From NCBI RefSeq assembly GCF_036194065.1, contig NZ_CP108095.1, forward strand, positions 3,968,001-4,032,000: a stretch of 64,000 bases of DNA. The letters run 5' to 3'. The position numbers were made by a program, and so were the translations under genes. This DNA is from Streptomyces sp. NBC_00239. GTDB lineage: Bacteria; Actinomycetota; Actinomycetes; Streptomycetales; Streptomycetaceae. Under the pieces are notes generated by a model. It did no database searches. It was not told where the DNA came from and saw only the letters and a list, made by a program, of their open reading frames with translations. Shown one piece after another: positions 9,253-27,013 of this stretch (position 1 is its first letter; each line of letters starts with the position of its first letter).

Positions 9253-11505
9253 CTAGAAGAAGACGTTCCAGGTGTTCAGGTCGGCCTCCGCGGTGGGCTC
9301 GGCGAGCCGGCCCATGCGGACGGGGGCGTCGTAGAGCCGGCCGGGGCCCAGTCGGCGCCAGAAGTGGCGCAGGCCGGGGGCGATCACCTTGACCACGTTG
9401 AGTTCGAGGTCGGGGCGGGTCTGGTCGACGACGATGACCTCGGAGCCGGCCTCCTTGATGCGCTCGACCTGGTCGCGGATGCGCTCGGCGAGGTCGAACC
9501 CGGCCTGCGGGCCGACCTTGGTGGCGGGCAGCTCCGGGTCGGGCAGCAGCCAGGGCTCCGAGGCGACGGTGGCCGTCTTCAGCCAGGTCAGCGTCTCCAG
9601 GTCGCTGACGAGGTACGCGGTCTCCCCGTCGGCGTCGCGCTTGTCGATCATCGGCAGGAACTGGTTGAGCTCGGTGAGCGCCCGGAAGGCCGCGACGCGC
9701 GGGTCCGGGTGGGCGCCGAAGCCGACCATGACGTCCTCGACGCTGTGGCGGCGGCGCGAGGCGGCCGCGTACACGGGCATGCCGAGGTCGGTGGTGATGT
9801 CGATCATCCACAGGTCGCGGTCCATGGCGTCGTAGAAGGCGCGCAGCCGGTCCACGTACGGGTCGTCGAGGGAGTCCATGTCGAAGGCCGGGACGCGCAG
9901 CCGGTTGTACCACCACACGGCGACGGCGTCGCGTTCGGTGAGCTCGCACAGGCCCTGGAGGATCGCTTCTTCGAGGGAGTTGCCGGCGGCGGTGCCGTTG
10001 GAGTCGGCGATGCAGAAGAAGTGGTCCTGGAGGTCCGGGTGGCCGTACCAGGAGTAGGCGGCCGGGACGAGGCGCTCCTCGTCGTGGGTGAGGGACCAGC
10101 CGGTGGTCCAGTCGATGGCGGCGTCCTCGGGGAACGGGTCCGGCACCTTGTGGAGGCGGTTGGCGGGGTCCTTGTTCCAGGCCGCGCGGTCGGCGAGCTG
10201 GGCGTCGGAGAAGTGCAGCAGGCTGCGGGGGTGCACGACCGTGGCCGGGTCGAGGTCGCGGTAGGCGGAGCGCTGCACGGGCTCGTCGCCGCGCCAGACG
10301 CCGACGTAGCGCTCGATGGCCTCGCAGACGGCGCTGACCTTGGCCTGGATCTCGGATCGGCCCTTGCCGCCGCTCTGGCCGCGCAGGTTGCGGCGCAGCA
10401 GGTCCATGCTGTCGTTGACCATCGCGAAGTTGTGGCCCGCGGCGTAGCTGTAGGTCAGGGTGTTGGACTCGGGGGTGTGCGAGGCCAGCTTGGTGATGGC
10501 GCCGAGGTGCTGGCTGATGTGCCGTTCCAGGCGGGCGAGGGTGGCCTCGGGGCTGTTGACGCGGTAGCCGCCGTCGCTGGTGTGGACGGCGTCGCCGGAG
10601 GCCAGCACGATCTTGGGGCTGCGCCCGCTGAAGACGGCCGGGTCGCCGCAGGAGCGGCACTGGGGCTGGCGGATCAGCGGGTGGTTCTCGGTCTTCAGGG
10701 TGCCGAGGTCCAGGGTGACCATCTGCCCGCACAGGGCGCCGGGTTCGCCGGTGGCGGAGATCCGGGCGGCCTCGGCGGCGATCAGGCCGGCGGCGGCCAG
10801 CGGTCCGGCCGCGATGCCCGCGCGGACCGGGTGGCGGGGCACGGTCTCGCCGCGCTTGCCGGCCAGGTAGCGCTCCAGCTGGCGGTTGCCGGCCAGGCGC
10901 TGGGCCAGGCAGGTCCAGCAGCCGGTGTGGTCGGGGTCGAGGAAGGGGCCGATCCAGGGCGCGACGCCGCCGGTGCGGGCCAGCAGCCACGGCCGGCCGG
11001 CCGCCAGCTGGCGCTCGTTGCGGACTTCGAGGGCCGGGTCGAGGTAGTCGTCGACGAGGACGACGGAGATGCCCTCCTCCGGCACGGCGTCGAAGTCGCC
11101 GGTGCGGGCGGCCAGTCCGAGCGCGCTCAGCGCTTCGAGGACCGGGCCGGGGTCGACGCCTTCGGCCGCGGAGACGGTGACGGGCGCGGCGGCGACCGTG
11201 CGGGCGGGGTCGATGCCCAGGGCGTCCCAGTAGGCGAGGGTGGCCTCCGGCAGGTCGGGCCGGCCCTCGGCCAGGTGACCGGCGGCGCCGAACCGCTTGA
11301 TCGCAGAGAACACGGCCGGTACGGGGAGCGTGCCGGCGAGCGCCTGCACGATCTCCATGACCGTCTTGCGGCCGTCCAGGTGCGGCAGCACGGCCGCGGC
11401 CGCCTTCCCGGGCACCAGGTAGTTCTGGCCCTCCGCGTAGAGGAAGACCCGCTCGCCCTCCAGCACTTCGGCGTGGAAATGGGCCTTGAGCCGCGGCTTT
11501 TCCAT
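9253..11505 (-). CDS. Fused azole cyclodehydratase: ThiF-like leader-binding domain plus YcaO
   Basis: A 750-residue C-D fusion that binds the precursor leader and uses ATP to cyclise Cys (and Ser/Thr) side chains into azolines. The N-terminal part (about 1-330) is the ThiF-like partner, with a four-Cys zinc site: Cys196 and Cys199 in CWTC, Cys283 and Cys286 in CRSC. The YcaO part (about 360-750) contains the ATP-site signature KGRSEIQAKVSAVCEAIERY (381-400) and the later CELTERDAVAVWWYN. The extreme C-terminus reads LNTWNVFF and lacks the Pro-x-Pro-x-Pro ending usual for azole YcaO proteins. The start is the ATG at 11505 after AAGGGGGAC. It is the first gene of the minus-strand processing and export operon. 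Confidence 0.94.
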   Translation of the reverse strand: MEKPRLKAHFHAEVLEGERVFLYAEGQNYLVPGKAAAAVLPHLDGRKTVMEIVQALAGTLPVPAVFSAIKRFGAAGHLAEGRPDLPEATLAYWDALGIDPARTVAAAPVTVSAAEGVDPGPVLEALSALGLAARTGDFDAVPEEGISVVLVDDYLDPALEVRNERQLAAGRPWLLARTGGVAPWIGPFLDPDHTGCWTCLAQRLAGNRQLERYLAGKRGETVPRHPVRAGIAAGPLAAAGLIAAEAARISATGEPGALCGQMVTLDLGTLKTENHPLIRQPQCRSCGDPAVFSGRSPKIVLASGDAVHTSDGGYRVNSPEATLARLERHISQHLGAITKLASHTPESNTLTYSYAAGHNFAMVNDSMDLLRRNLRGQSGGKGRSEIQAKVSAVCEAIERYVGVWRGDEPVQRSAYRDLDPATVVHPRSLLHFSDAQLADRAAWNKDPANRLHKVPDPFPEDAAIDWTTGWSLTHDEERLVPAAYSWYGHPDLQDHFFCIADSNGTAAGNSLEEAILQGLCELTERDAVAVWWYNRLRVPAFDMDSLDDPYVDRLRAFYDAMDRDLWMIDITTDLGMPVYAAASRRRHSVEDVMVGFGAHPDPRVAAFRALTELNQFLPMIDKRDADGETAYLVSDLETLTWLKTATVASEPWLLPDPELPATKVGPQAGFDLAERIRDQVERIKEAGSEVIVVDQTRPDLELNVVKVIAPGLRHFWRRLGPGRLYDAPVRMGRLAEPTAEADLNTWNVFF

Positions 11506-11593
11506 CTGTCCCCCTTGGTTCTCGCGATCGGGCCTGACGTGGCATCGCACCGGCTACACAAACACGAGGCCGACCGCGGGTAAATGCTTCACC

Positions 11594-14389: not shown

Positions 14390-15808
14390 TCAGGCGTGCG
14401 CCGCCTGCGCGGACCGGCCGGCCCGGCCGATGCCCAGCCGGGGGCTGGTCACCAGGTAGAGCCCCGTCGCCGCGTCCCGGCCGACGAGGCCGCGCCGCGG
14501 CGACATCCGCTCGGCCAGGACCTCGGCGGGCAGCGGACCCGCGCCGCCCGCCCGCTGCGCGTCGTCGAGGTCCAGGGCCCCGGCGGTGAGCGCCGCGAAG
14601 GCCTCGCTGTCCGGCGCGGAGCGCAGCGGGGCCGCGTTCGCCTCGCGGTCCATCAGCTCCGGGTGGCGGCCGCGCGCGAGCCGCTGGGCGAGCCAGAAGT
14701 AGGTGGCCTTGCCGCGGTACTGCTCGTAGAAGCCGGACACCATCGAGTACATGCGGGCGTACGCGTTGCGGTAGAGGGCCTCGTAGAACGACAGCGCCTC
14801 GTCCTCGGTCACCTCGCCCGCGTCGACCGCGAGGATCGACGCGGCGGCCAGCATGCCGCTGTACATCCCCAGGTGGACGCCGGTCGACAGCAGCGGGTCC
14901 AGGAAGCACGCGGAGTCGCCGGCGAGGAAGTAGCCGGGGCCGCAGAAGCTGTCCGCCGTGTACGAGAAGTCCTGCTCCACGCGCACGTCGTGCTGGAACA
15001 CGGCGTCCTCGACCAGCTCGCGCACCGTCTCCGACTCCTGCACGGCGTCCAGGAACAGGGCCTCCATGCCCTCCGCGCCGCTCGCGTGGCGCTGCTTGCG
15101 CTTGAGGAAGTGGTCCTGGTGGGTCACGAACCCGACGCTGTACACGTCGTCCTTGAGCGGGATGACCCAGTACCAGCCCTCGGGGGCGGAGATGACGTTG
15201 ATGCCGCCTCGGGGGGTGCTCGGCAGCAGCGTCGCGCCCCGGTAGTAGCCCCAGACGGCCACGTTGCGGAACACGTCGTGCGGGGTGCGGTTGTCGAGGT
15301 GGCGCACCGACATCAGCCCGGCCCGGCCGGTGGCGTCGATGACGTGGTCGGCGCGGGTGGTGTGCTCCCGGCCCTCGTGGGTCCACTCGACGCCCGCCGC
15401 GCGGCCGTCCTCGAAGAGCACCTTGCGGGCCTGGGCGCCCTCGACGACCTCGACGCCCTGGGAGGCGGCGTGGCGCAGCAGTACGTCGTCGAAGTCGGCG
15501 CGGTCGACCTGCCAGGACGTCTGGGCGTCGGTACCGAAGATCTCGGGCCAGTCGACGACCCAGTCGCGCTCGGCGCCCCACCGCAGCAGCAGGCCCTCCT
15601 TGACCTGGTAGCCGCGCTCCTCCACCTTCTCCAGCGCGCCGGCCAGCTCGATGATGGACCGGCAGGACGTCGCCACGGATTCCCCGATGTGATACCGCGG
15701 GAAATGGGCGCGCTCCAGCAGTTTCACGCGCGCGCCCTGGCGGGCCAGCAGCGTCGCGGCGATGGAGCCGGCCGGCCCACCACCCATGACCACGATCTCG
15801 GATGCCAT
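14390..15808 (-). CDS. Flavin-dependent halogenase-like FAD oxidoreductase
   Basis: A 472-residue protein with an N-terminal FAD-binding motif GGGPAGS (9-15) and the WxWxIP-type motif GWYWVIP (211-217) that is diagnostic for flavin-dependent halogenases. RGYQVKEG places a Lys at residue 70, a region that in halogenases carries the active-site lysine. It would use reduced FAD, halide and oxygen to halogenate an electron-rich ring. The only aromatic residue in the precursor core is the Tyr of the CTYC segment, which makes it the natural candidate substrate. The start at 15808 follows GGGGAGGG. The gene is last in the tailoring direction, with a 207-bp gap before it, so it may have its own promoter. 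Hydroxylase activity is the main alternative. Confidence 0.82.
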   Translation of the reverse strand: MASEIVVMGGGPAGSIAATLLARQGARVKLLERAHFPRYHIGESVATSCRSIIELAGALEKVEERGYQVKEGLLLRWGAERDWVVDWPEIFGTDAQTSWQVDRADFDDVLLRHAASQGVEVVEGAQARKVLFEDGRAAGVEWTHEGREHTTRADHVIDATGRAGLMSVRHLDNRTPHDVFRNVAVWGYYRGATLLPSTPRGGINVISAPEGWYWVIPLKDDVYSVGFVTHQDHFLKRKQRHASGAEGMEALFLDAVQESETVRELVEDAVFQHDVRVEQDFSYTADSFCGPGYFLAGDSACFLDPLLSTGVHLGMYSGMLAAASILAVDAGEVTEDEALSFYEALYRNAYARMYSMVSGFYEQYRGKATYFWLAQRLARGRHPELMDREANAAPLRSAPDSEAFAALTAGALDLDDAQRAGGAGPLPAEVLAERMSPRRGLVGRDAATGLYLVTSPRLGIGRAGRSAQAAHA

Positions 15809-16015
15809 CGCGTTACCCTCCCCTTTCCCCCGACGCAATTCCGCCGCATTCCATTACGCCGACGGACGCACAGGAATTGTCTGCGGCGGATGCCTCGCAT
15901 CGGTTTTTCATCGGCCGCAACGACCTTCGCACGGCACGCGGCCGGAATGAACAGGCGGCGATGCGCAGCGGGGGATTAAGTACCGGGCGGATTGCGTAAT
16001 CGAAGGGACCGGGAT

Positions 16016-16678
16016 TCAGCGGGCCGGGCCGAAGCCCTCCGTCACTCCGAACACCGCACCCCAGGGGTCGCTCAGCAGTCCCGGGGCGAGGACGCGGCCG
16101 CCCGCCGCGCGGGCGAGGTCCTCGAAGGCGCCGATGTCGGCCACACCGAACCGCGGCACCCAGCGCGCGTCCGCCGCCTCCCCGGTCTCCGGCCGGGCGC
16201 CGCAGACCTCGCGGTAGAAGTCGCCGGACTCCCCCGGCTGCGGCGTGTGCAGCACGGCGCCGGTCATCGCACCGGCCTCGTCGACGACCACCACCCCCTC
16301 GTCGTGGGCGCCCTGCCACAGCCCGAAGGCCGCGCCCAGGGGGTCGACGGCGAGGCTGAGGCGGCCGTTGCCGCCGGCCGGGACGCCCGGCACCAGCACG
16401 TGGGCGCCGTGCTTCTCGGCCCGCTGCCGTGCGGCGTCGAGGTCCTTCGCCGCGAGGTACACGGTCCACGCGGAGCCGAAGCGCGGTCCGGCCGGGCTCG
16501 GCCCGAGGCCGCCGACGATCTCGCCGCCGAGCAGCACCAGGTGGTAGCCGTGGCCGCCCTCGGGCCGGAACTCCCAGCCGAAGAGGGCCGCGTAGAAGTC
16601 CTTGGCACCGGTGGGATCGACGCCTACGTGGTCGATCCAGCAAGGAGTTCCGTCAACGTAGGAGGTACGGCGGGGCAC
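16016..16678 (-). CDS. VOC-superfamily protein (two glyoxalase-like domains)
   Basis: A 220-residue protein with two vicinal-oxygen-chelate modules, about 10-115 (PCWIDHVGVDPTGAKDFYAALFGWEF) and 125-218 (GAVLHTPQPGESGDFYREVCG). Such proteins act as metal-dependent lyases or dioxygenases, or as drug-binding resistance proteins. The GTG start at 16678 lies inside the 3' end of the preceding gene (55-bp overlap), so the two are very probably co-translated. In a RiPP cluster it could be a tailoring enzyme or sequester the product; the sequence does not decide. Confidence 0.8.
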   Translation of the reverse strand: MPRRTSYVDGTPCWIDHVGVDPTGAKDFYAALFGWEFRPEGGHGYHLVLLGGEIVGGLGPSPAGPRFGSAWTVYLAAKDLDAARQRAEKHGAHVLVPGVPAGGNGRLSLAVDPLGAAFGLWQGAHDEGVVVVDEAGAMTGAVLHTPQPGESGDFYREVCGARPETGEAADARWVPRFGVADIGAFEDLARAAGGRVLAPGLLSDPWGAVFGVTEGFGPAR

Positions 16679-17529
16679 GGTGCGTTTCCCTTCGGGGCGG
16701 TCGCGTTCAGTCGTGCGTCGAGCAGGTCGGCGGCCTCTTCGGCGCCGCCCGATTCAGGCATCAGCAGGCGCATCCGGGGGGCGGCCGCGAAGGCCGGGTC
16801 GGCCGAGGCCTCCGTGGGCCACACCGAGGCGGCGAAGTCCCAGTCCTCCAGGCGGGAGCGCTGCGCGCCCGCGCTGCAGAGGCGGACCAGGGTGGCCGGG
16901 CCCAGCCGTTCGCCGATGGCCGCCGTGGCGATCAGCCGCTCCGGGCGGACCATGACGGACGAGCCCGTCAGCGGCGAGCGGACCGGGCGCGCGTCGGTGC
17001 CGGGGCAGTCGGTGAGGCCGGCCGCGCGGGCGGCCTCCAGGGCGGGGCCGCGCAGTTCGAGCGGCAGCTGGTAGGGCAGCGTCTCGCCGGTGACGCGGTC
17101 GACCACCAGGTACTGGCCGGAAACCATGCGCCAGCCGCGAGCGCCCAGGGCGAGGGCAACGGAGTTCCGCGGCGAGCCGATACCGCCCACCAGGGCGACC
17201 ACGCCGGCGCCCTTGGCCAGCACGGCGGCCTGCACGACCGCGTACGGGTGCTCCAGGACGGCGAAGGGTGGCAAGACTGGCGGGATTCCGCCTATGCCGT
17301 GGTAGGCCCAGCGGCGTAGTAGGCGCCCCTCGCCGTCGAGTACGCGCACCTCACGGCTCGCCTGCCCCACCCCGGCGTGCGGGGCGAAATGCAGGGTCAG
17401 TGCGTTCCCCACCGGCTTCGACCGTTCCTCGATCAGATGCCGGCCGAAGTAAAAGGCAAGGTCAGGCCCCTCCACCAGCCCCATCACTTGGAGGATCGAC
17501 CCAAAGAACTCAAGCGCATAAATCGGCAT
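16624..17529 (-). CDS. HPr-kinase/PEPCK-like protein with a degenerate P-loop
   Basis: I read this 301-residue protein as a divergent member of the HPrK-like proteins found in some RiPP clusters. The stretch VVALVGGIGSPRNSVALAL (110-128) aligns with the family's P-loop, but the usual G-K-S/T is P-R-N-S. RGWRMVSGQYLVVD (131-144) corresponds to the strand that normally carries an Asp-Asp pair, here Gly-Gln. The N-terminal about 100 residues have no recognisable domain. It may be a pseudo-kinase or a binding protein. The ATG at 17529 follows GGGGGG. It overlaps the VOC gene and is 68 bases from the hydrolase gene. The family call is inference. Confidence 0.55.
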   Translation of the reverse strand: MPIYALEFFGSILQVMGLVEGPDLAFYFGRHLIEERSKPVGNALTLHFAPHAGVGQASREVRVLDGEGRLLRRWAYHGIGGIPPVLPPFAVLEHPYAVVQAAVLAKGAGVVALVGGIGSPRNSVALALGARGWRMVSGQYLVVDRVTGETLPYQLPLELRGPALEAARAAGLTDCPGTDARPVRSPLTGSSVMVRPERLIATAAIGERLGPATLVRLCSAGAQRSRLEDWDFAASVWPTEASADPAFAAAPRMRLLMPESGGAEEAADLLDARLNATAPKGNAPCPAVPPTLTELLAGSTT

Positions 17530-17597
17530 GTCCCCCCAGACCCCCAATTAGCTTTCCATGATCACTTTATATGGGCGCCGACGCGCCCATTAAGCGT

Positions 17598-18452
17598 CTA
17601 ACCGGCCAAGAGGTGCTCCCGCAGCAGCGGCGCCACCGTCCACGGCTGTTCCAGAAAGGGCAGGTGTCCGGCGTCCGGCACCACAAAGGTGCGGCACTGC
17701 GGCACCACCCGGGACAGCAGGGCGGCATTGTCATGGAATACGGGCATGTCGTCGCTTCCGGTCACTGCGAGCACATGCGCCGTGATCCGCGCCAGTTCCT
17801 CCCCGGAGTGCACACGGGCTCCGAGCCCCGCCATCGACCCGTCGTCCAGCTCGGCCCAGGAGTGGCGGGCCACGACGGACCGCAGCTCGGCGCGGAGCAC
17901 CGGATGCGCCTCGGTGCCCCGGAAGATGTCCGGCGGCGCCGTCATCCACAGGTCGGCCAGCTGCTCGGCCGCCTCCGCCCCCCGCATCCGGCGGAGCATC
18001 AGCAGTTCGATGTACCGCTTGCGGGCCGCCGGGTCGGGCGGTCCCCCGGCGGGGGTCGGCGCGCCGACGACGAGCCGTTCCACCTCGTCCGGGTACGCGA
18101 GCGCCGCCTCCAGCGCGACGGTCGACCCGAAGGACAGGCCCACCCACCGCCGGGCCCCCTCCGCACGAGCCAACCCAGCGATGCGTGCCGCGAGTTCGGG
18201 CATGGTCACCCCCGGGCGCAGCGCCTCGGAGCCGCCGTGCCCCGGCAGGTCCACGCCGACGTGGCGCAGTCCGGGGAGCAGCCGCCACAAGGGCCGCCAC
18301 AAGGTGGCGTCCATGGTGTAGCCGTGCACCCACAGCACGGTGGGGCCACTGCCGTACGCGAGGGTGCGCAGGCCGTCGTAGGCGCCTTCCCGCTCGCCGG
18401 GCAGCGGCTCGCGGCAGACGTGGCGGCCGGCGCCCGGGTCGGCCCCCGTCAC
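17598..18452 (-). CDS. Alpha/beta-fold hydrolase
   Basis: A 284-residue alpha/beta hydrolase. The oxyanion-side motif is VHGYTMDA (42-49), the nucleophile elbow is GLSFG with Ser107, and the catalytic His lies in DAGHLPFLEQP near the C-terminus. It could hydrolyse an ester, amide or thioester on the maturing peptide, or release a protecting group; the substrate is unknown. Its GTG start overlaps the stop of the Rieske gene (GTGA), placing it firmly in the tailoring operon. Confidence 0.88.
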   Translation of the reverse strand: MTGADPGAGRHVCREPLPGEREGAYDGLRTLAYGSGPTVLWVHGYTMDATLWRPLWRLLPGLRHVGVDLPGHGGSEALRPGVTMPELAARIAGLARAEGARRWVGLSFGSTVALEAALAYPDEVERLVVGAPTPAGGPPDPAARKRYIELLMLRRMRGAEAAEQLADLWMTAPPDIFRGTEAHPVLRAELRSVVARHSWAELDDGSMAGLGARVHSGEELARITAHVLAVTGSDDMPVFHDNAALLSRVVPQCRTFVVPDAGHLPFLEQPWTVAPLLREHLLAG

Positions 18453-19399
18453 GGCGCCTCCCCGGCCACCGGCACGTCTCCCAGTTCGGCGAACCCCGTG
18501 CAGAACTCCCGGTAGGCGACGACCGCCGCGTCGGCCGCGTCGAAGCGCGGCGCCATCCGCGGGTTGAGGTTCTCCCAGACGACCACGTCCTCGGCCACGG
18601 CCCGTTCGCTGCCGGCGACCAGCATGGGCAGCTGGTCCTCGCGGCCCTCGCGGACGCCGAGGGCCACCCGGACCACACAGCCCCCCTGCCCGTCGGGCAC
18701 CGCGCCGGTGACGATGACGTGCACCTCGTCGGCGGGGCCGAACTCGGTGACGACGACGCCCGGGCTGTACGCACGGCCGTGGAAGCGCGGCACGTACGGC
18801 CCGGCCTCCGGAGCCGCCTCACCACGGTCGGGCCGCCAGGGCGACGACGGCATCGGGAACTCCCCGTCCATCACCAACTCGCCGTGCGCACCGGTGGAAT
18901 GCTTCATCCCGCAGACCCGGTACACCTTGTGCACCGCCTGGAAGTGCTCGATGTCGAAGACGTTCTCGACGATGATGTCCACGGGCGCGTTCACCGGCCG
19001 CTCCACCGCCTTGACCAGCGGCATCGACTCGGCCATCTCCTTGAGCACGGTGCGCAGCCCGCGGTCGTCGTCCGGCCCGTCGGTGAGGCGCACGAAGACG
19101 GCGTCACCGCACACGACGACCTCGTGCTCCCGCACCCAGGGCCGGCTGCCCCCGCCCGAGGGCTGCCCCATTCCGATGCGCCGCCCGTGGAACGGACACA
19201 CCAGGCAGCCGCCCTCCACCCGGCCCTCGTACCCGAGATGGGCGCCGCGGTGCGGGCAGTCGGCGTCGTAGACCCGCAGCCCGCCCTCCCTGCGCACGGC
19301 CACCAGACGGCGGGCGCCGATGGCCAGCGGGACCACCTCGCCGTCCAGGTCCGATGCGAACGCGGCCAGGTACCACCCCGAGTGGATCTTTGCTGTCAC
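18449..19399 (-). CDS. Rieske non-heme iron oxygenase
   Basis: A 316-residue oxygenase component. The [2Fe-2S] Rieske domain has Cys48-x-His50 in DCPHRGAHL and Cys68-x-x-His71 in CLVCPFHGRR. The mononuclear iron site is in NVFDIEHFQAVH, giving Asp149, His152 and His157. Such enzymes carry out hydroxylation, desaturation, N- or O-demethylation or cyclisation using electrons from a separate reductase, none of which is encoded nearby. The GTG start at 19399 follows GGGGAAG and overlaps the preceding stop by four bases. Rieske tailoring of an azole peptide would be unusual. Confidence 0.9.
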   Translation of the reverse strand: MTAKIHSGWYLAAFASDLDGEVVPLAIGARRLVAVRREGGLRVYDADCPHRGAHLGYEGRVEGGCLVCPFHGRRIGMGQPSGGGSRPWVREHEVVVCGDAVFVRLTDGPDDDRGLRTVLKEMAESMPLVKAVERPVNAPVDIIVENVFDIEHFQAVHKVYRVCGMKHSTGAHGELVMDGEFPMPSSPWRPDRGEAAPEAGPYVPRFHGRAYSPGVVVTEFGPADEVHVIVTGAVPDGQGGCVVRVALGVREGREDQLPMLVAGSERAVAEDVVVWENLNPRMAPRFDAADAAVVAYREFCTGFAELGDVPVAGEAP

Positions 19400-20619
19400 T
19401 GCTTCCCCGCTTCCAGAACTTCCTGTGCGGCGCGCCGCCCGTCGGCGTACGCACCCTGCAGCCACGGCAAGGCGCGCCCGGTCGTGGCGGCCTCCCCCGC
19501 GAAGAACACCCGCCCGCCCAGGGGACGGGCCCAGTCCCGGGCCGCCCGGTCCGAGCCCGGTCCCGGCGCGCAGAACGCCCCGCCGCTGTACGGGTCGGCG
19601 GCCCAGTCGGCGGTCTCGACGTCCACCGCCTCGACGCCCCTGGTCCACGGCAGCGCCACGGCCAGCAGCGCGGCGAGGTGGACCGCCGACCCGGCCGCCT
19701 CGCGGACGCACGCGGCCGCGGCGGACTTGGCGACGATGAGCACTTCGGGACGGCCCTGCCGGCACGAGACGAAACCGCCGACGCCGTCCGCGTCGAACAC
19801 GGAGGCCGTTTCCGGGGCCGGACCCGCCAGGGTCACCACCGCGCAGAAGCCGTCGCCGGGCGCCAGCGTCCGCGCCGCCGCGGTCTTGTCCGGGCCGAGC
19901 CCGTCGACCGTGAGCAGGCCGCCGTCGACCACGACCGGCGGTACCGCGAGGACCGCCCGGTCCGCGGTCAGTTCGCCGTCACCGGTGACGACGCGTACGC
20001 CGCCCTCGGGGGTGGTCCCGATCCGGCGGACGGGGACGCCCGTACGCACGTCCAGGCCTTCGGCGAGGGCGCGGGGCAGCAGTTCCATGCCGCCGGGGAC
20101 GGTGAACTCGCCGCGGCCGCCGCCGTCCTGGCGCACCGCGGCCGCCACGTCGGCGGCGTCGAGGCGGTCGGGGTCGGCGGCCCAGGTCTGGCGCAGCCAC
20201 TCGCGGGCGGTGGCCGCCTCGGCGGGTGTGGCACCGCTCGCCGCCAGCCAGCCGCCGACGCTGAGACCGCCGGGGGTGGCGTATGCGGCGAGCCTGCCCT
20301 CCAGCGCCCACGGCGGGTTCGCGCCGCGGGCGAGGAGGCCCATGGGGCGGGCGACGCGGCCGGACACGACGTACGCGGCCGACGGGCGGGGCGCGGCGGG
20401 CAGCGGGCCGAGGACGGTGTGGGCGGGGTTCCGGTCGCCGTGCACGATCTGCGCGCCGAGTTCGAGGGCCGGCCCGCCGTCGGCCGGGCGGAACGTGCGG
20501 ACACGGCCGCCGATCCGGGGCCGGGCCTCCAGGACCAGGGCGTCGACGCCGGCCTGCGCGAGGCGCTGGGCACAGGCCAGCCCCGCGACTCCGGCTCCGA
20601 TCACGACCACCTCAGGCAT
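19396..20619 (-). CDS. FAD-dependent amine-oxidase-like protein
   Basis: A 407-residue flavoprotein of the monoamine oxidase / desaturase type. It has the N-terminal dinucleotide motif VVVIGAGVAGLACAQRL (4-20), then GGRVRTF, and the C-terminal FAD motif RVFFAGEAATTGRALPWLQGAY typical of amine oxidases. It could oxidise an amine or introduce unsaturation during peptide tailoring. It overlaps the upstream P450 by eight bases and the downstream Rieske gene by four, giving a tight oxidation block of P450 - flavoprotein - Rieske enzyme. Confidence 0.87.
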   Translation of the reverse strand: MPEVVVIGAGVAGLACAQRLAQAGVDALVLEARPRIGGRVRTFRPADGGPALELGAQIVHGDRNPAHTVLGPLPAAPRPSAAYVVSGRVARPMGLLARGANPPWALEGRLAAYATPGGLSVGGWLAASGATPAEAATAREWLRQTWAADPDRLDAADVAAAVRQDGGGRGEFTVPGGMELLPRALAEGLDVRTGVPVRRIGTTPEGGVRVVTGDGELTADRAVLAVPPVVVDGGLLTVDGLGPDKTAAARTLAPGDGFCAVVTLAGPAPETASVFDADGVGGFVSCRQGRPEVLIVAKSAAAACVREAAGSAVHLAALLAVALPWTRGVEAVDVETADWAADPYSGGAFCAPGPGSDRAARDWARPLGGRVFFAGEAATTGRALPWLQGAYADGRRAAQEVLEAGKQ

Positions 20620-21844
20620 GTGCGCCCTCCAGTCCGGCCGCGTCCCGTACGTCCGCGTCCCGTACGTCCGTGCCCAGGGCGACGGGGAGGGCGGCGAGGC
20701 GGCGCGGGATCAGGGACGGGGCCCAGCGCGGGTCCGGGCCCGCGATGACGGCCTCGGGGAAGCGTCGGACGATCCTGCCGAGGAGCACCGCTCCGGACTG
20801 TTTGACCAGGCGGGCGGCCAGGCAGAAGTGCGGGCCGCCGCCGAAGGCGAGGTGCGGGTTGGGCCGCCGGTCCCACACCAGCTCGCCGGGGTCGGCGAAG
20901 ACGGCCGGGTCCCGGTTGGCGGCGGCGACCACCGCGAGGACCCGCTGCCCGGCGGGGATGGGGCCGCCCGGCAGCTCGGCGTCGCGGGCGGTGACGCGGG
21001 CGGTGAAGGGGATCGGCGCTTCGAGCCGCAGCAGCTCGTCCACGGCGGTCTCGGCCGCGTCCGGACCGGCGGTGCGCAGGGCCGCCCGTACGTCGGGGCG
21101 CGGCAGCAGCCAGTACAGGGCGTTGCCGACGGCTTCCGCGAGCGGCTGCCAGCCACCGACGACGGCGAGACCGAGGACGCCCAGCATCTCGGGCCGGGTC
21201 AGCCGGGGGTCGGCGGCCAGCCGGCCGAGCGGGCAGCCCGGGTCGGCCCACGCGGCGTGCGCGTCGAGGAAGCGGGTCAGCTCGCCCATGGCGGCCCGGC
21301 CCAGGCGGGCGACGTGCGGCGGGGCGAGCGGGTCGAGGTTGACGGACGCGGCGCGGGCCAGCTGGGCCAGCGTCGCGCGCTGGTCCTCGGCGAGGCCGAA
21401 GAGCCTCGCCAGGACGGCGGTCGCCAGCGGCGCGCCGAGTTCCTCCACGGCATCGACGGGCATGCCGCGCTCCACGGCCCGGTCGAGCAGGGCGTCGGCG
21501 TCCGCGGCGATCGCGTCGGAGACGGACGCCAGGGCGGCCGGGCCGAGCAGCAGGGCGCCGGGCGCGCGCAGCCGGGTGTGGTCGGCGCCGTCCGTGGTCA
21601 GCATGGACACCGGCAGGTCGTCGTCCCGGGACCGCTCGCGCTGGCCCGCGGCCGCGGAGAACGCCGGGTCCTTGAGCAGCGCCGCGCAGTCGGCGTACCC
21701 GGTGACCAGCCACACGCCGGTCATCGGGTCGCGGTGCACGGGGTCGTGGGCCCGCAGCCAGTCATAGGCCGGGTACGGGTCGATGCGCCCGGCGGGGCTG
21801 AAGGGGTGGGCCAGGTGGGCGGGCAGCCCGGCGGTCTCGGTCAT
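20612..21844 (-). CDS. Cytochrome P450 with atypical I-helix
   Basis: A 410-residue bacterial P450. The heme-thiolate loop is FGGGPHFCLAA with Cys341; the ExxR pair is Glu270-Arg273 (ELLR). The I-helix reads LAVVGGWQPLAEAVGN (226-241): at the place of the usual A/G-G-x-D/E-T, the acid and alcohol are replaced by Trp-Gln-Pro. This often accompanies unusual chemistry or altered oxygen activation. The C-terminus carries a short DVRDADVRDA repeat. AGGAGA precedes the ATG. It is likely a tailoring enzyme of the RiPP cluster, in the same operon as the precursor. Confidence 0.9.
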   Translation of the reverse strand: MTETAGLPAHLAHPFSPAGRIDPYPAYDWLRAHDPVHRDPMTGVWLVTGYADCAALLKDPAFSAAAGQRERSRDDDLPVSMLTTDGADHTRLRAPGALLLGPAALASVSDAIAADADALLDRAVERGMPVDAVEELGAPLATAVLARLFGLAEDQRATLAQLARAASVNLDPLAPPHVARLGRAAMGELTRFLDAHAAWADPGCPLGRLAADPRLTRPEMLGVLGLAVVGGWQPLAEAVGNALYWLLPRPDVRAALRTAGPDAAETAVDELLRLEAPIPFTARVTARDAELPGGPIPAGQRVLAVVAAANRDPAVFADPGELVWDRRPNPHLAFGGGPHFCLAARLVKQSGAVLLGRIVRRFPEAVIAGPDPRWAPSLIPRRLAALPVALGTDVRDADVRDAAGLEGAHA

Positions 21845-21905: not shown

Positions 21906-22817
21906 TCAGCGCACCCGCGGACCGCGCCAGCCGAACGTCAGGCCGGTCGCCAGCAGCCCGCCGACCGCCCACAGCGCCAGAACCAGGGCGATCCGGCCCA
22001 ACTCCCAGGAGCCGGCGGGCTCCACGGCGGTGAAGGAGTCCGGCAGGAACACCGAGCGGAAGCCCTGCGCCATCCACTTCACGGGAAACAGCGCGGCCGT
22101 GTTCTGCATCCACAGCGGCAGCTTCTCGAACGGGTAGAACACGCCCGAGATGAACTGCAGGACCATGAACACGGGCGTCACCACGGCCGCGGCGGAACGG
22201 CTGTTGGGGATCAGCGCGCTGTAGGCGGTGCCGGCCAGCGCGCAGGCCGCGGTGCCCAGCGCGAGGCACCAGGCGAGGGTGCTCCACCGCTCGGCCGTCT
22301 GCGGCAGCGGCAGTCCGAACGCGGCCACGGCGATGCCGATGAGCAGCAGCGTTTCGAGGGCCGTGGTCACCACGACGCGGACCAGCTTGCCCACGAAGTA
22401 GGCCGACTTGGGCATCGGCGTCAAGGCGAGGCGGCGGATCGTTCCGGTGTCCCGCTCTATGGCCACGTTGATGGCCAGGCCGGAGAACGCGGTGCTCATG
22501 ACGCCCGCCGCGATCACCCCGGCCATGAAGACCTGCCGGAAGTCGGTGTCGGTGCCCTCGACCTTCCCCTCGAAGATCGAGCCGAAGACGACGAGCAGCA
22601 TCACCGGGAAGAGCAGCGTGAACACCAGCGACTGCTTGTTGCGGAAGAACGCTCTGAGCTCGACGGACGAGCGCGCCGCGCAGGCCCGCGCGTACCCCCG
22701 GGCCGCACGCGCGGCGGCCGGGCGTGCGGGCACGTCCGAGACCGTACGGGCCGCTCCGCCGTCGTACCGGGGCGGGGACGGGTTCATGGACCTGGTTTCG
22801 GGCACGAGCGCGGTCAT
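21906..22817 (-). CDS. ABC-2 type permease (DrrB-like)
   Basis: A 303-residue membrane subunit of a two-gene drug-type ABC exporter. After about 50 N-terminal hydrophilic residues there are six hydrophobic segments, beginning near LVFTLLFPVMLLVVFG (64-79). The ABC-2 hallmark ATPVFMVLQFISGVFYPFEKLP-like region lies near 212-233. The start at 22817 overlaps the stop of the ATPase gene (ATGA); longer in-frame extensions fall inside that gene. With its partner it may export the mature product or protect the host from it, separately from the C39 export system at 1437-7616. Confidence 0.9.
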   Translation of the reverse strand: MTALVPETRSMNPSPPRYDGGAARTVSDVPARPAAARAARGYARACAARSSVELRAFFRNKQSLVFTLLFPVMLLVVFGSIFEGKVEGTDTDFRQVFMAGVIAAGVMSTAFSGLAINVAIERDTGTIRRLALTPMPKSAYFVGKLVRVVVTTALETLLLIGIAVAAFGLPLPQTAERWSTLAWCLALGTAACALAGTAYSALIPNSRSAAAVVTPVFMVLQFISGVFYPFEKLPLWMQNTAALFPVKWMAQGFRSVFLPDSFTAVEPAGSWELGRIALVLALWAVGGLLATGLTFGWRGPRVR

Positions 22818-23761
22818 GCGGCGTTCTCCCTGCTCTCCCTGTCGATCAGGCTCAGGTAGATGTCCTCGAGGGTGGGACGGTGCACGCGAAGGTCCGCGAG
22901 TTCGGGCGCGCCCGCCGCGTGCGCCCACGGCAGGAGCAGGCCCAGCACGTGCGAGGGCGCGGAAGTGCGCAGCGACACGGTGCACGGACCGGACGGCGCC
23001 ACCTCGGTGTCGGGCGGCAGCGGGGGCAGGGGGACGTCGGCCAGTGCCTCGCCGCGGCCGAAGCTCACGGTGGCGGGGGTCTGGTCGCGGCCGCCGAGGG
23101 AAGCCAGCGGCCCGCACGCGACGAGCCTGCCGCCGACGACGACGCCCGCCCGCTGCGCCAGTTCCTCCGCCTCATCGAGGTAGTGCGTGGTCAGGACGGT
23201 CGTACGGCCGCGGTCGGCGAACCAGCGGACCAGCTCCCAGGCCTCGCGGCGGGCCACCGGGTCCAGTCCGGTGGTCGGCTCGTCCAGGAAGATCAGTTCG
23301 GGGTCGCCGACGACCCCGACCGCTACGTCCAGACGGCGCTGCTGGCCGCCGGACAGTGCGGTGGCCTGACGCGAGTGCAGGGAGCCGAGCCCCACCATCT
23401 CCAGCACTTCGCCGACCGGCAGCGGGGCCGGATACATGGCGGCGAAATGCGTGACGACTTCTTTTACGGTCAGATCGGAGTAGGTGCCCGTCGTCTGGGG
23501 CACCACGCCTATTCTCGCTCGCCATTCCCGCGGATCCTCGGCCGGATCATGGCCGAGGACCCGCACGTCTCCACCGGTACGCCACTGCACTCCCGTCAGA
23601 ATGTCGACGGTCGTGGTCTTTCCTGCGCCATTGGGCCCGAGCAGTGCGAACACTTCACCGCGAACAATGTCGAGGCTGATGTCGCGAACCGCTTGGACGT
23701 CACCGTATCGCTTGGAAAGTCCGCGTACGGAAACGGGATGCTCCGTCAGCGCAGTGGGCAT
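22814..23761 (-). CDS. ABC transporter ATP-binding subunit (DrrA-like)
   Basis: A 315-residue ATPase of the daunorubicin-resistance type. Walker A is GPNGAGKTT (about 43-51), signature LSGGQQRR (about 135-142), Walker B LIFLDEPTTGLDP, followed by an H-loop THYLDEAEE. A C-terminal accessory domain of about 90 residues is present, as in DrrA proteins. I start it at the ATG at 23761, with CCGGAG seven bases upstream; a TTG five codons earlier is less likely because it overlaps that site. It lies only 39 bases after the precursor gene, so precursor and transporter share a transcript. Confidence 0.92.
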   Translation of the reverse strand: MPTALTEHPVSVRGLSKRYGDVQAVRDISLDIVRGEVFALLGPNGAGKTTTVDILTGVQWRTGGDVRVLGHDPAEDPREWRARIGVVPQTTGTYSDLTVKEVVTHFAAMYPAPLPVGEVLEMVGLGSLHSRQATALSGGQQRRLDVAVGVVGDPELIFLDEPTTGLDPVARREAWELVRWFADRGRTTVLTTHYLDEAEELAQRAGVVVGGRLVACGPLASLGGRDQTPATVSFGRGEALADVPLPPLPPDTEVAPSGPCTVSLRTSAPSHVLGLLLPWAHAAGAPELADLRVHRPTLEDIYLSLIDRESRENAA

Positions 23762-23800
23762 GGGACGCTCCGGCAAAGTGGGAAGGGTTGCGAGCGCCTG

Positions 23801-24187
23801 TCAGGTGCAGCAGCAGCAGGGGCAGCAGCAGTAGGTGCACTCGGACATGTCGTCCACGCCGCCGGCCACGTCGGACAGTTCGCCCTCGCTGAGCTCGACG
23901 GGGTCGACCGTCGGGGTCGCGGGGATGTGGAACTCGTAGCGGCCGGTCGCCAGGCCCGCCTCCCACAGGTCGACCTGGACGTCCAGGTTGCCCTGCTCGT
24001 GGCCGTCGGGGGCCTGGGTGACGATGACGATCTCGGCGTCGGCCGGGAGTTCGAGGCCGGACTCGGCGAGCGCGGTCCGCGGCTCGTTGGCGAGCTTCGC
24101 GGAGAACGCCTCGTCGGACCAGGCGCTGATGAGAACCCGGGTGTAGCAGTTCACGAACTCAGCACGCTGCTGCGGGTCGAGCGCCAT
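23801..24187 (-). CDS. Cys-rich azole RiPP precursor with nitrile-hydratase-like leader
   Basis: A 128-residue precursor. Residues 1 to about 95 resemble the nitrile hydratase alpha-subunit family (AWSDEAFSAKLANEPRTALA, 22-41, then LELPADAEIVIVTQ), marking an NHLP-type leader. The leader ends in ELSDVAGG (103-110), a double-Gly site for the C39 exporter. The core (111-128) is VDDMSECTYCCCPCCCCT: eight Cys, one Ser and two Thr, so up to eight thiazoles in runs of three and four, plus possible oxazoles, and one Tyr. GAGGAGAG lies eight bases before the ATG. It heads the minus-strand tailoring operon. I know of no characterised product with this core, though I could not search. Modification pattern and product are inferred. 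Confidence 0.93.
   Translation of the reverse strand: MALDPQQRAEFVNCYTRVLISAWSDEAFSAKLANEPRTALAESGLELPADAEIVIVTQAPDGHEQGNLDVQVDLWEAGLATGRYEFHIPATPTVDPVELSEGELSDVAGGVDDMSECTYCCCPCCCCT
23804..23832 (-). repeat. TGC trinucleotide runs encoding the polycysteine core
   Basis: All seven Cys codons of the two runs (three, then four) are TGC, making an interrupted trinucleotide tract (GCA on the plus strand) split by one CCC. Slippage at such a tract could change the number of Cys residues without breaking the frame. Confidence 0.8.
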
Positions 24188-24580: not shown

Positions 24581-25924
24581 GTGACAGCGACCCACGCACC
24601 GGCGGGCACCGTCCCACCAGGGCCCGACACCCCCGTGGACATGGAGCTGATGCGCGCCGACCCGCTGGCCTTCGTGACCGGAATGCATCGTACGTACGGC
24701 GACATCACCAGTCATGTCAGCGACGGCGAGCGGGTGTTCATGCTGCACCGGCCCGACCTGGTGCGGCACGTGCTGAAGGACAACACCGGCAACTACACCA
24801 AGGCCGGCACCCCCGACGACGCCATGCTGCGCCCGCTGCTGGGCAACGGGCTGCTCACCAGCAACGGCGCCGACTGGGCCCGCCAGCGCAAGCAGTGCGC
24901 CCCCGCCTTCCGCCGCACCGAGGTCGCCACCTTCGACGGCATCATCACCGAGGAGACCGAGGCGCTGCTGGAGCGCTGGCGGGACGCCATGGCCGAAGGC
25001 ACCGCCCTGCCCGTGGAGCACCACCTGACCTCGCTGACGCTGGCGATCCTCACCCGTGCCGTGCTGGGCGTGGACATGGGCGCGGCCGGCGAGGGCTTCG
25101 GCCGCGCCGTCGACGCCGCCAACCGCTTCATGGGGCACTACGTACCGAACCCCGACCCCGATCCCGCGGACACCGCGCTGCGCCGCAAGGGATACGTACA
25201 GGCGCGCATGTTCCTCCAGCTGATCGCCCGGACCGTCATCGCCTCGCGGCGGGCGGCCGGCGGCGGGCAGTCCCCCGCGCACGGGTCCGCGTCCCTGCTC
25301 GACGCGATGATCGGCGAACTGGACGACGAGGAGCTGCGCGACCAGGTGCTCACCCTGGTCATGGCGGGCCACGAGACCACCGCCAAGGCCCTGACGTGGA
25401 CGCTGTACCTCCTCGACCGGCACCCGCAGGAGGCCGAGAAGGTCCGGGCGGAGATCGACGCCGTCCTCGGGGACCGCACGCCCACCGCCGCCGACCTGCC
25501 CGACCTGGTGCACTGCCGGCGCGCGATCGAGGAGGCGATGCGGCTCTACCCGCCGGTGTGGCTGATCTCCCGCCGCGCCAAGGGCCCCGACACGATCGAC
25601 GGCTACGACATCCCCGCCGGCGCGCTGGTGTGCGTCAGCCAGTGGGTGCTGCACCGCCACCCCGACCACTGGGACCGGCCCGACGCGTACGTACCCGGCC
25701 GCTTCGAGGACGCCGACCTGCCCAGCCACCTCTACCTGCCCTTCGGCGGGGGCGAGCGCATCTGCATCGGCCAACACCTGGCCCTGGTCGAGGCCACGCT
25801 GGTGCTCGCCGTCCTGATGCGCGCGACCCGCCTCGAACTGGAGCCCGGCTTCCCGGTGGAGCCGGAGGCCCTGGTGACCCTGCGACCCAAGCACGGCATG
25901 CGGATGACTGCGAGGCCCCGATGA
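24581..25924 (+). CDS. Cytochrome P450 (canonical)
   Basis: A 447-residue P450 with all standard motifs: I-helix AGHETT (262-267), ExxR at Glu318-Arg321 (EEAMRLYPP) and heme loop FGGGERICIGQ with Cys395. The overall form resembles the CYP102/fatty-acid-hydroxylase-like class more than the small macrolide P450s, with no fused reductase. The GTG at 24581 is chosen because GGAGG lies seven bases upstream. It is divergent from the precursor gene and overlaps the following methyltransferase by four bases. It may hydroxylate or couple residues of the modified core; an unrelated lipid substrate cannot be excluded. Confidence 0.9.
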   Translation: MTATHAPAGTVPPGPDTPVDMELMRADPLAFVTGMHRTYGDITSHVSDGERVFMLHRPDLVRHVLKDNTGNYTKAGTPDDAMLRPLLGNGLLTSNGADWARQRKQCAPAFRRTEVATFDGIITEETEALLERWRDAMAEGTALPVEHHLTSLTLAILTRAVLGVDMGAAGEGFGRAVDAANRFMGHYVPNPDPDPADTALRRKGYVQARMFLQLIARTVIASRRAAGGGQSPAHGSASLLDAMIGELDDEELRDQVLTLVMAGHETTAKALTWTLYLLDRHPQEAEKVRAEIDAVLGDRTPTAADLPDLVHCRRAIEEAMRLYPPVWLISRRAKGPDTIDGYDIPAGALVCVSQWVLHRHPDHWDRPDAYVPGRFEDADLPSHLYLPFGGGERICIGQHLALVEATLVLAVLMRATRLELEPGFPVEPEALVTLRPKHGMRMTARPR

Positions 25925-26760
25925 CCACGTCCACCCCGACCTCCCCCGCCGCCGGCCCGGTCGGCGGCTCGTACGACCCCGCCGCGACCACGGCGGGTGG
26001 GCTCGCCGGCGAGCTGGCCCGCCTGGAGGCCCAGGCGGAGCTGTCCTTCGGCGCCGAACTGCGCATCCTGCGCGAGGCGGGCCTGGACGCGCAGGCCGGT
26101 CCGTTCGTCGAGATCGGCGCCGGCTCCGGCGCGGTCACCCGCAGGCTGCGCGCCGCCCTGCCCGGGCTCACCCACACCGCCGTCGACATCGACGGCGACC
26201 TGCTGGCCCACGCCGACGGCTGCGGTGCCGAACTCCTCGTCGCCGACGGCGCGGCCCTGCCGCTCCCGGACGACTCGGCGGGCTTCGTCCTGCTGCGCTA
26301 CGTACTCCAGCACCTGGCCGACCCGCAGGCCGTGCTCGCCGAGGCGCTGCGCATCCTGCGGCCCGGCGGCCGGATCGCCGTGACCGAGGTCGACGCGGCC
26401 TGCTGGGGCCTGGCCGAGCCGGCGTACCCCGAACTGGCCGCGATCCACGGGAAGCTCTCGCAGGCCCAGGCCTCCGCGGGCGGCGACCGCACCGTCGGGC
26501 GGCGCCTGACCCGGCTGCTGCGCGGCGCGGGTTATGAGGACGTGGCCCTGCGCCCGTTCGCCAGCACCAACGACGACCACCCGGTCGAGGCCTTCGCCCC
26601 ACACCTGGGCCCCGGCCGCCTCCAGCCGCTCGTGGCCGCCGGTGTGGTGAGCCTCGCCGAGTTCGCGCTGGCCGCCGACCGGTGGAACCGCTTCCGCACC
26701 GACCCGGACGCGTACGTGATGCTGCTCGGCTTCACCGCCACGGGCACCGCCCCCCATTGA
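25921..26760 (+). CDS. Class I SAM-dependent methyltransferase
   Basis: A 279-residue methyltransferase. Motif I VEIGAGSGAVTRRL lies at about 63-76, the acidic end of strand 2 is AVDIDGD, and post-motif sequences LLRYVLQHLADPQAVLAEALRILRPGGRI match the methyltransferase-11/25 group. Candidate acceptors are the N-terminal amine, the Tyr hydroxyl or a hydroxyl added by the P450. The ATG overlaps the P450 stop (ATGA), so the two are translationally coupled. Confidence 0.9.
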   Translation: MTTSTPTSPAAGPVGGSYDPAATTAGGLAGELARLEAQAELSFGAELRILREAGLDAQAGPFVEIGAGSGAVTRRLRAALPGLTHTAVDIDGDLLAHADGCGAELLVADGAALPLPDDSAGFVLLRYVLQHLADPQAVLAEALRILRPGGRIAVTEVDAACWGLAEPAYPELAAIHGKLSQAQASAGGDRTVGRRLTRLLRGAGYEDVALRPFASTNDDHPVEAFAPHLGPGRLQPLVAAGVVSLAEFALAADRWNRFRTDPDAYVMLLGFTATGTAPH

Positions 26761-26827
26761 TCCGGCCCGTCCGGCGCCGGACGGCCGACCGGCCGGCACC
26801 ACCCACCACCGATTGGACCCGCCCCCC

Positions 26828-27013
26828 ATGAATCCGAACCTCAAGATCTTCCTGACGATCTTCTGCTACATCAGCGGCGTGATGGGCCTCGTGACGGCCG
26901 TCCTGCACGCCAGCGACCAGCCCGCCGGGACCACGACGGCCATCATCTCCGGCGTCCTCGGCGTGGTCTTCCTCTTCGGCGGCATGGCACTCGGCCGCCG
27001 CCCCCGCCACTGA
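26828..27013 (+). CDS. Small two-helix membrane protein (61 aa)
   Basis: A 61-residue protein with hydrophobic stretches at about 6-26 and 37-56 and a basic tail GRRPRH. It belongs to no family I recognise. It follows the methyltransferase by 67 bases in the same direction. Its length, two-helix layout and GRR tail resemble the protein at 1062-1247 on the other flank of the cluster, though the sequences are not obviously homologous. The start is the ATG at 26828; a TTG five codons upstream is possible. An accessory or immunity role is speculative. Confidence 0.6.
   Translation: MNPNLKIFLTIFCYISGVMGLVTAVLHASDQPAGTTTAIISGVLGVVFLFGGMALGRRPRH

Follow-up and report, generated by a model that had tools for sequence, protein, structure and literature searches.

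Which product could be made from a small gene that joins an NHLP-type leader peptide to a core consisting largely of Cys residues? This question is raised by an open reading frame on the minus strand of the window (the whole stretch of 64,000 nucleotides of Streptomyces sp. NBC_00239 DNA that was analyzed). The preliminary description had proposed a precursor with a Gly-Gly site and an 18-residue core containing eight Cys, and all of this could be read in the sequence, in an ORF of 128 aa. The C-terminal region of the precursor is ELSEGELSDVAGG-VDDMSECTYCCCPCCCCT-stop, the leader ends with LSDVAGG, and the core of 18 residues with its eight Cys starts after VAGG. The most convincing answer, which is held with good though not full confidence, is that the gene encodes a RiPP precursor with an NHLP leader, and that its CCC-Pro-CCCC block would be converted mainly to thiazoles. 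The features of the locus are compiled in Table 1.

Table 1. Positions of the precursor, its parts and the surrounding genes in the window, with the evidence for each assignment.
Feature	Position	Strand	Evidence or remark
Precursor ORF, 128 aa, NHLP-type leader and Cys-run core	23801..24187	minus	ATG start; TIGR03793; 33 further genomes with Cys-run homologs
Leader, residues 1-110, Gly-Gly at end	23858..24187	minus	17-row alignment
L(X)4L motif LSEGEL, residues 99-104	23876..23893	minus	expected YcaO/RRE contact, by analogy
Core VDDMSECTYCCCPCCCCT, residues 111-128	23804..23857	minus	sequence and alignment
Conserved unit CCCPCCCCT, residues 120-128	23804..23830	minus	exact C-terminus in 22 of 39 distinct precursor ORFs
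DrrA-like ABC ATPase, directly after precursor	22814..23776	minus	TIGR01188 223.4 bits, under cut-off 312.45
ABC-2 permease (DrrB/SagH-like)	21906..22814	minus	PF01061 E 4.6e-26; SagH family E 9.9e-15, 54.2 bits, far under cut-off 450
Cytochrome P450 a	20612..21844	minus	PF00067 E 9.2e-15; heme Cys present
FAD amine-oxidase family enzyme	19396..20619	minus	PF01593 E 3e-41
Rieske oxygenase	18449..19399	minus	PF00355 E 3e-12; CxH and CxxH ligands in 15/15 rows
Alpha/beta hydrolase	17598..18452	minus	several alpha/beta hydrolase models matched, each under cut-off
HprK-related protein, degenerate Walker A	16624..17547	minus	TIGR04352 24.3 bits, far under cut-off 200
Glyoxalase/VOC-like protein (named by inspection)	16016..16678	minus	NF053614 KbpA 86.5 bits, under cut-off 250
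Flavin-dependent halogenase family protein	14390..15838	minus	PF04820 E 1.7e-36
Large LuxR-type regulator, 840 aa	11796..14318	plus	C-terminal LuxR HTH matches
YcaO cyclodehydratase fused to PqqD/RRE-like and E1-like domains	9253..11550	minus	likely start Met at 11505
SagB-type azoline dehydrogenase	7632..9137	minus	TIGR03605 144.6 bits (cut-off 78.4)
HlyD-like NHLP secretion protein	6798..7616	minus	TIGR03794 152.1 bits, just under cut-off 156.2
C39 peptidase/ABC exporter (NHLM ABC1)	4439..6745	minus	TIGR03796 937.6 bits (cut-off 853.3); PF03412 E 4.4e-32
Second NHLP exporter ABC protein (NHLM ABC2)	1437..4442	minus	TIGR03797 808.4 bits (cut-off 709.4)
Cytochrome P450 b, divergent from precursor	24581..25924	plus	PF00067 E 1.2e-76 (longer ORF); GTG start by inspection
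SAM methyltransferase	25921..26760	plus	PF08241 E 6.6e-18; conserved beside P450 b
Small 66-aa probable membrane protein, conserved with cluster	26813..27013	plus	membrane nature by inspection

The assignment of the leader to the NHLP type could be retained in a qualified form. The TIGR03793 model (leader_NHLP) matched the precursor with an E value of 3.9e-11, but the score of 42.7 bits is under the curated cut-off of 50.9, and therefore the leader reads as a divergent member of this nitrile hydratase alpha-like type; PF02979 yielded 18.3 bits (cut-off 27.2). L99 and L104 are invariant in all 17 aligned leader rows, and docking of the L(X)4L motif on the RRE of a YcaO protein is supported for other precursors in the relevant parts of two studies (PMC12455567, PMC10858898). 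A site of the Gly-Gly type closes the conserved leader (VAGG in the window, AAG in many relatives), and a core rich in Cys, Ser and Thr follows. The window precursor was the sole match at E 1e-3 in the genome from which it comes (9.3 Mb on 5 contigs).

Related leaders followed by Cys-run cores, for which a search had been suggested, do exist. Genomes were searched with the precursor or with an alignment, in overlapping samples that were drawn from larger groups. In the genus, 16 of 392 genomes matched at E 1e-3, of which seven had Cys-run cores and nine were dropped, and in the class 22 of 394 genomes matched (10 with Cys runs, 12 dropped). At E 1e-6, three of 296 genomes of the phylum matched, all three with Cys runs, as did 14 of 260 genomes of the family of G481 (13 with Cys runs, one dropped). 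A scan of genome contigs led to nine named loci (six from Streptomyces, one from Yinghuangia, one from Streptosporangium and one from an actinomycete MAG), and one further genome, G1095, came in through a DNA pattern search. Duplicates, recognized by sequence, coordinates and the lengths of their contigs, were merged (G669 with G393, G1444 with G397, G1154 with G394, L019 with G188, and L020 with G167), which left 34 genomes, the window included, with Cys-run cores and related leaders. They contain 39 distinct precursor ORFs, whereby an ORF was counted only with CC near the C-terminus and a profile match at 1e-5, and identity was judged on the last 118 residues. All associations reported for the 34 genomes come from a biased sample, which was picked by leader similarity and had neighborhoods of about 15 to 75 kb. 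A plasmid search yielded one relative with 41% identity on a record of 969,901 bases, and its precursor is devoid of a Cys run.

The comparison of the 39 precursors revealed which part of the core is kept. Exactly CCCPCCCCT forms the end of 22 of them, and a Cys run followed by Pro (with at most two Ser, Thr or Asn between) and then again by Cys is present in 36; this arrangement is absent from the fourth MAG precursor and from those of G474 and G757. With so many exact ends and with Cys on both sides of the Pro, the Cys-run core reads as more than a product of chance. Tyr immediately precedes the run in 22 of the 39 precursors, and 35 of the leaders carry L(X)4L before [AG]G. The stub from the Gly to the run is variable (VDDMSECTY, VLDACNY, CNY, GTY, GNS, ASAVEAIDIN), Ser, Thr, Asn or Ala stands in or beside the run in several relatives, and Streptomyces bambusae T110 has the core VDDISECYYCCCPCCCCT, slightly unlike that of the window. 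The eight Cys proposed for the core are indeed present in the window, but the eighth, separate Cys (C-x-Y before the run) was found in only 11 of the 34 genomes, and the most widely kept unit reads as CCC-Pro-CCCC with seven Cys. NHLP precursors have been described, as far as the account goes, as usually though not strictly having hypervariable cores (PMC2887384); in the present family it is the stretch before the run that varies, and the C-terminal part of the core remains constant. Because of this near-invariance of its core unit, the family is likely to produce one class of compounds.

Some loci deviate from the simple arrangement with one precursor. In the MAG TET1 (G398; L027 and L056) four Cys-run NHLP precursors are arranged in tandem, and this cluster is situated after a series of apparent genes for ribosomal proteins, SecY and adenylate kinase, which were named by inspection of the ORF list. 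In G488 (L064/L079) a second NHLP-like precursor, the core of which ends with VNIVVIAIVI, adjoins the Cys-run precursor. The distant NHLP-like precursors of G757 and G474 (L066 and L067) end with CCCC-[ST]GLCTCTGAVSHDTWY and are accompanied by a YcaO with 36% identity; by sequence they form a separate Cys-run type without Pro.

The proteins that had been invoked for azole formation and for cleavage after Gly-Gly are encoded in the same cluster, with TIGR03604, TIGR03605 and TIGR03796 all above their cut-offs for YcaO, SagB and the C39 exporter, respectively. To the left of the plus-strand LuxR-type regulator lie the genes for the YcaO fusion, SagB, the HlyD-like protein, the C39 exporter and the second ABC exporter protein. 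The YcaO fusion reached 244.8 bits with TIGR03604 (cut-off 219.25) and 143.2 bits with TIGR03882 (cut-off 36.9). Its relatives in the PDB are LynD (4v1t, E 2.8e-165), TruD (4bs9, 5.4e-162) and MusD (7u58, 4.9e-156), and the alignment with LynD and TruD spans the fusion almost from end to end. A point against azole formation may be its C-terminus: many azoline-forming YcaO proteins have a PxPxP tail there, but the window protein ends with a conserved VFF-like tail without PxPxP. It is predicted to be a YcaO of the azoline-forming type with a leader-binding domain.

On this basis the following course of events is proposed. Docking of the leader on the RRE of the YcaO, which resembles LynD and TruD, would be mediated by the L(X)4L motif, as the motif and published relatives suggest, and the YcaO would cyclodehydrate Cys residues to thiazolines, with the C-terminal Cys first. 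The available account of TruD reports that the enzyme starts at the C-terminal Cys, and that a change of Cys to Pro mimics a formed ring, so that an internal Cys then reacts (PMC3995012). Because of this result, the conserved Pro may be a built-in ring mimic, which would perhaps enable the YcaO to continue with the CCC run after the CCCC run. SagB, judged by its family and motif, would oxidize the thiazolines to thiazoles, and the C39 exporter would cleave after the Gly-Gly and export the peptide. The P450s, the amine oxidase, the Rieske oxygenase and the methyltransferase, and in one subset of the genomes the flavin halogenase, may decorate the product. A role in export or self-protection is probable for the DrrA/B-like ABC pair, and the product is probably, although this is a guess, a secreted antibiotic-like metabolite. 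The formation of thiazoles from Cys, as it had been put forward, is thus backed by the LynD/TruD-like YcaO, the Lys-Tyr motif of SagB, the exporter and the L(X)4L motif; the polythiazole itself stays a prediction from the sequence.

A small but real chance is given to the view that the Cys residues are only partly cyclized, or that the rings are left as thiazolines, which would result in a mixed thiol/thiazoline peptide binding a metal such as copper or zinc. Free Cys and azoline nitrogens would bind metal. The formation of contiguous thiazolines is demanding, and in the text available on SrpE, which has three of them, the cyclodehydration is called challenging (PMC10858898). Against incomplete processing speaks the presence of SagB in 31 of the 34 clusters (it was not found in the sequence examined of G394, G757 and G943), together with the Lys-Tyr motif, which was present in all 21 SagB rows, two of which represent one strain. 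The C39 exporter was found in 30 genomes and was not detected in the sequence examined of G394, G513, G757 and G943.

It had also been claimed that contiguous azole runs of this length are rare in linear azole peptides. Taken to mean that long runs are nearly without precedent, this was too strong, because such runs have been published for streptolysin S (PMC4513790) and SrpE (PMC10858898). For streptolysin S, a stretch of 9-10 adjacent heterocyclizable residues and five Cys in a row are described (PMC4513790). The closest known system is SrpE/SrpC/SrpI of marine sponge origin, which, according to the parts of the study that describe it, comprises a proteusin leader, the core LCCCW, a YcaO that turns its three Cys into thiazolines, as well as a flavin brominase (PMC10858898). 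Like the window, it combines an NHLP-type leader and its L(X)4L motif with a stretch of contiguous Cys, a flavin-dependent halogenase and a YcaO, but it has three Cys instead of seven or eight, Trp is brominated, and thiazolines are formed, in contrast to the SagB and the set of oxidases present here. For MprE/MprC/MprD, ten NHLP precursors with two to six rings, a Cys-preferring YcaO, a flavin oxidase leading to thiazoles and the L(X)4L motif are reported in the text at hand (PMC12455567). An NHLP-type precursor, a YcaO, an oxidase for thiazole formation and the motif are common to both, whereas the window has a single precursor, the core unit of which is nearly invariant. Nostatin A is an NHLP proteusin with thiazoles and oxazoles formed by a YcaO and an oxidase; as it is portrayed in its report, it differs by a 30-residue, Ser/Thr-rich core without Cys runs, a LanM-like enzyme, an epimerase and a sactionine bond (PMC11583998). 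The YcaO fusion is homologous over nearly its full length to the cyanobactin heterocyclases LynD and TruD, the latter being treated in the part of PMC3995012 that was used here. Among the family matches listed for the cluster proteins scanned there was no protease of the PatA/PatG type. The substrates of cyanobactin enzymes have spaced Cys and are macrocyclized by proteases of this type.

A membrane-active Actinomycete peptide that resembles streptolysin S, with the Cys run as its active part, is a rather unlikely product. Such a peptide would fit with the contiguous Cys runs of streptolysin S cores and with the streptolysin S-like precursors that are mentioned for Actinobacteria in the accessible account (PMC4513790), and the ABC permease matches the SagH family, although weakly (E 9.9e-15, 54.2 bits, cut-off 450). 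The NHLP-type leader, the fused LynD-type YcaO, the C39 NHLP exporter, the many tailoring oxidases and the strict Pro-split plan of the core all set the window apart from that family. None of the following is known from streptolysin S: a leader of this type, a YcaO fusion, an exporter of the C39 NHLP type or a core split by Pro. Its arrangement consists of separate C and D proteins, in contrast to the window, where the YcaO is fused and of the LynD type. Searches of the open-licence PubMed Central literature retrieved no described compound with the window core, as had been expected, and an exact text search for 'CCCPCCC' found only a keratin-associated peptide. With SrpE and the streptolysin S-type cores, the kind of system is already known; what looks new from the sequences is the density of Cys, the near-invariant CCC-Pro-CCCC unit and the tailoring set.

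Most of the tailoring genes are situated between the precursor and the regulator. Leftward from the precursor, the minus-strand order is ABC ATPase, permease, P450 a, amine oxidase, Rieske oxygenase, hydrolase, HprK-related protein, VOC-like protein and halogenase. A P450 I-helix normally carries an acid-alcohol pair; that of P450 a reads GGW.PLAE in 15 of 15 rows, with the heme Cys conserved. The amine-oxidase family enzyme had no sequence relative in the PDB at 1e-15. The Walker A stretch of the HprK-related protein is devoid of Lys in 12 of 12 rows, which makes a function as an ordinary kinase unlikely. On the other side, the 66-aa protein, a possible immunity protein, adjoins the methyltransferase in many relatives. 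As a halogenase, two P450s, an amine oxidase and a Rieske oxygenase are present, the mass of the mature product probably cannot be derived from the loss of 20 Da per Cys alone. For the window core, [M+H]+ was calculated as 1981.540 in the unmodified form, 1841.357 with seven thiazoles and 1821.331 with eight, at 20.026 Da lost per Cys, and one Cl would add 33.961; these values do not apply to the differing core of S. bambusae.

The halogenase family protein is related to several entries of the PDB, namely 8zop (8.1e-67), 3e1t (2.8e-66), which we take to be the chondrochloren halogenase CndH, RadH (8gu0, 5.6e-63) and CmlS (3i3l, 1.5e-56). FxxPxxSxG is a mark of halogenases. In all 10 halogenase rows this motif occurs as FLDPLLSTG and WxWxIP as WYWVIP, and the GxGxxG of the window protein is GGGPAGS; GxGxxG and WxWxIP are listed as motifs of flavin-dependent halogenases in the section consulted of PMC5945002. 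NCBIfam matches had suggested a Cys-aromatic cross-link of the LodB/QhpG kind made by a halogenase-like protein, which was discarded, as the PDB relatives are mostly named halogenases.

A linked halogenase gene was found in 12 of the 34 genomes. It accompanies the C-x-Y cores in 11 of 11 genomes, including the later found G1095, for which this combination had been predicted, and it is linked in one (G1435) of the 23 others, whereby absence refers to the sequence examined, which is short for G327, G513, G757, G943, G1288, G1431, G1447 and G1451. In a YcaO tree of 21 rows the halogenase clade has a support of 100/99 and one change is sufficient, but this tree predates the discovery of G1435, G1288 and G1095 and makes the pattern look tidier than it is. 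The halogenase of G1435 lies beside the VOC gene, and the core of that genome, VDINCCCCPCCCCT, has no C-x-Y, no Tyr and no other aromatic side chain. In G1288 a relative with 64% identity lies on a contig apart from that of the Cys-run cluster (L171), beside LuxR and antiporter relatives, and the core is also devoid of Tyr. Because of these two genomes, the eighth Cys and its Tyr (C-x-Y) were ruled out as a general target of the halogenase. Whole-genome searches at E 1e-60, which covered 14 of the 23 others, detected a relative of the halogenase elsewhere in G388 (55%), G1288 (64%), G350 (47%), G360 (39%) and G1451 (39%), and no match in the remaining nine; for G396 and G398 the best results were 39% and E 6e-13.

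Do these oxidase and halogenase genes (14390-21844) represent another pathway, which has nothing to do with the precursor and only happens to be encoded within the cluster? This is quite unlikely, although some genomes would be in accord with it. Of the gene set of the window, G350 and G488 have only the precursor or precursors, YcaO, SagB and the exporter, plus weak ABC ATPase matches of 29-30%, and thus no oxidase or halogenase genes in the sequence examined, and the halogenase relative of G388 is about 6.7 Mb away from the Cys-run cluster, with no other cluster genes as neighbors except for a partial antiporter match. However, P450 a, the amine oxidase, the Rieske oxygenase and the hydrolase occur together with the precursor in 26 of the 34 genomes, which belong to several genera and families. 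In G360 and G513, P450 b and the methyltransferase are added to the set of precursor, YcaO, SagB and exporter (the exporter was not found in G513). One specific assignment of tasks is conceivable but decidedly improbable: the halogenase would halogenate a thiazole, as the linked halogenase beside the core without aromatic side chains in G1435 might suggest, and the P450, amine oxidase and Rieske enzymes would oxidize the Pro that bridges the two runs, perhaps with formation of a ring similar to pyrrole, resulting in a rigid, conjugated ribbon of seven to eight rings.

It is very improbable that the Cys block is left unmodified, as a metallothionein-like or disulfide peptide, while the YcaO acts on something else. 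No product is known for the precursor, which leaves room for this view, but the leader carries the L(X)4L motif, and the YcaO goes along with the Cys run. A YcaO relative is located nearby in 33 of the 34 Cys-run genomes; the one in G943 is partial at a contig end, and none was found in the sequence examined of G394, which stops at a contig end. In contrast, the neighborhoods of four leaders without a Cys run (G301, G173, G038 and G1400), the only ones among the dropped matches that served as a YcaO control, contained no YcaO with at least 36% identity, and the best YcaO-like matches in these controls covered 43% of the query with 28% identity and 53% with 27% identity. In two of the controls, G173 (L110) and G038 (L111), NHLP-like precursors with Cys-less cores are adjoined by an NHLP exporter and a SagB-like gene, and no YcaO was found; thus SagB alone does not appear to mark thiazoles.

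The last reading, an expansion of TGC triplets within a frame that is wrong or decaying, is practically out of the question and is already contradicted by the sequences of the relatives: every Cys codon of the window run is TGC, and a bare DNA pattern matched 14 of 391 genomes of the order, with Cys-run precursors in six and Cys-rich low-complexity frames without a leader in eight, so that the pattern on its own is no evidence and was ruled out as a family finder, but the leader is conserved in frame with 40-90% identity to the window precursor in 16 rows, the CCCPCCCCT end is kept exactly with leaders down to about 65% identity, and synonymous TGT as well as CCG/CCC codons are present among the relatives.

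If the conversion of the CCC-Pro-CCCC block mainly to thiazoles is true, a LynD-like enzyme has to place seven or eight rings in a nearly unbroken series, which is interrupted by a single conserved Pro. This would extend the reach of a single YcaO/SagB pair and yield a genetically programmed polythiazole rod, to which a linked set of oxidases and a halogenase is added. The recurrence of this Cys block in related bacteria suggests a single defined family of natural products, which can be sought by mass.
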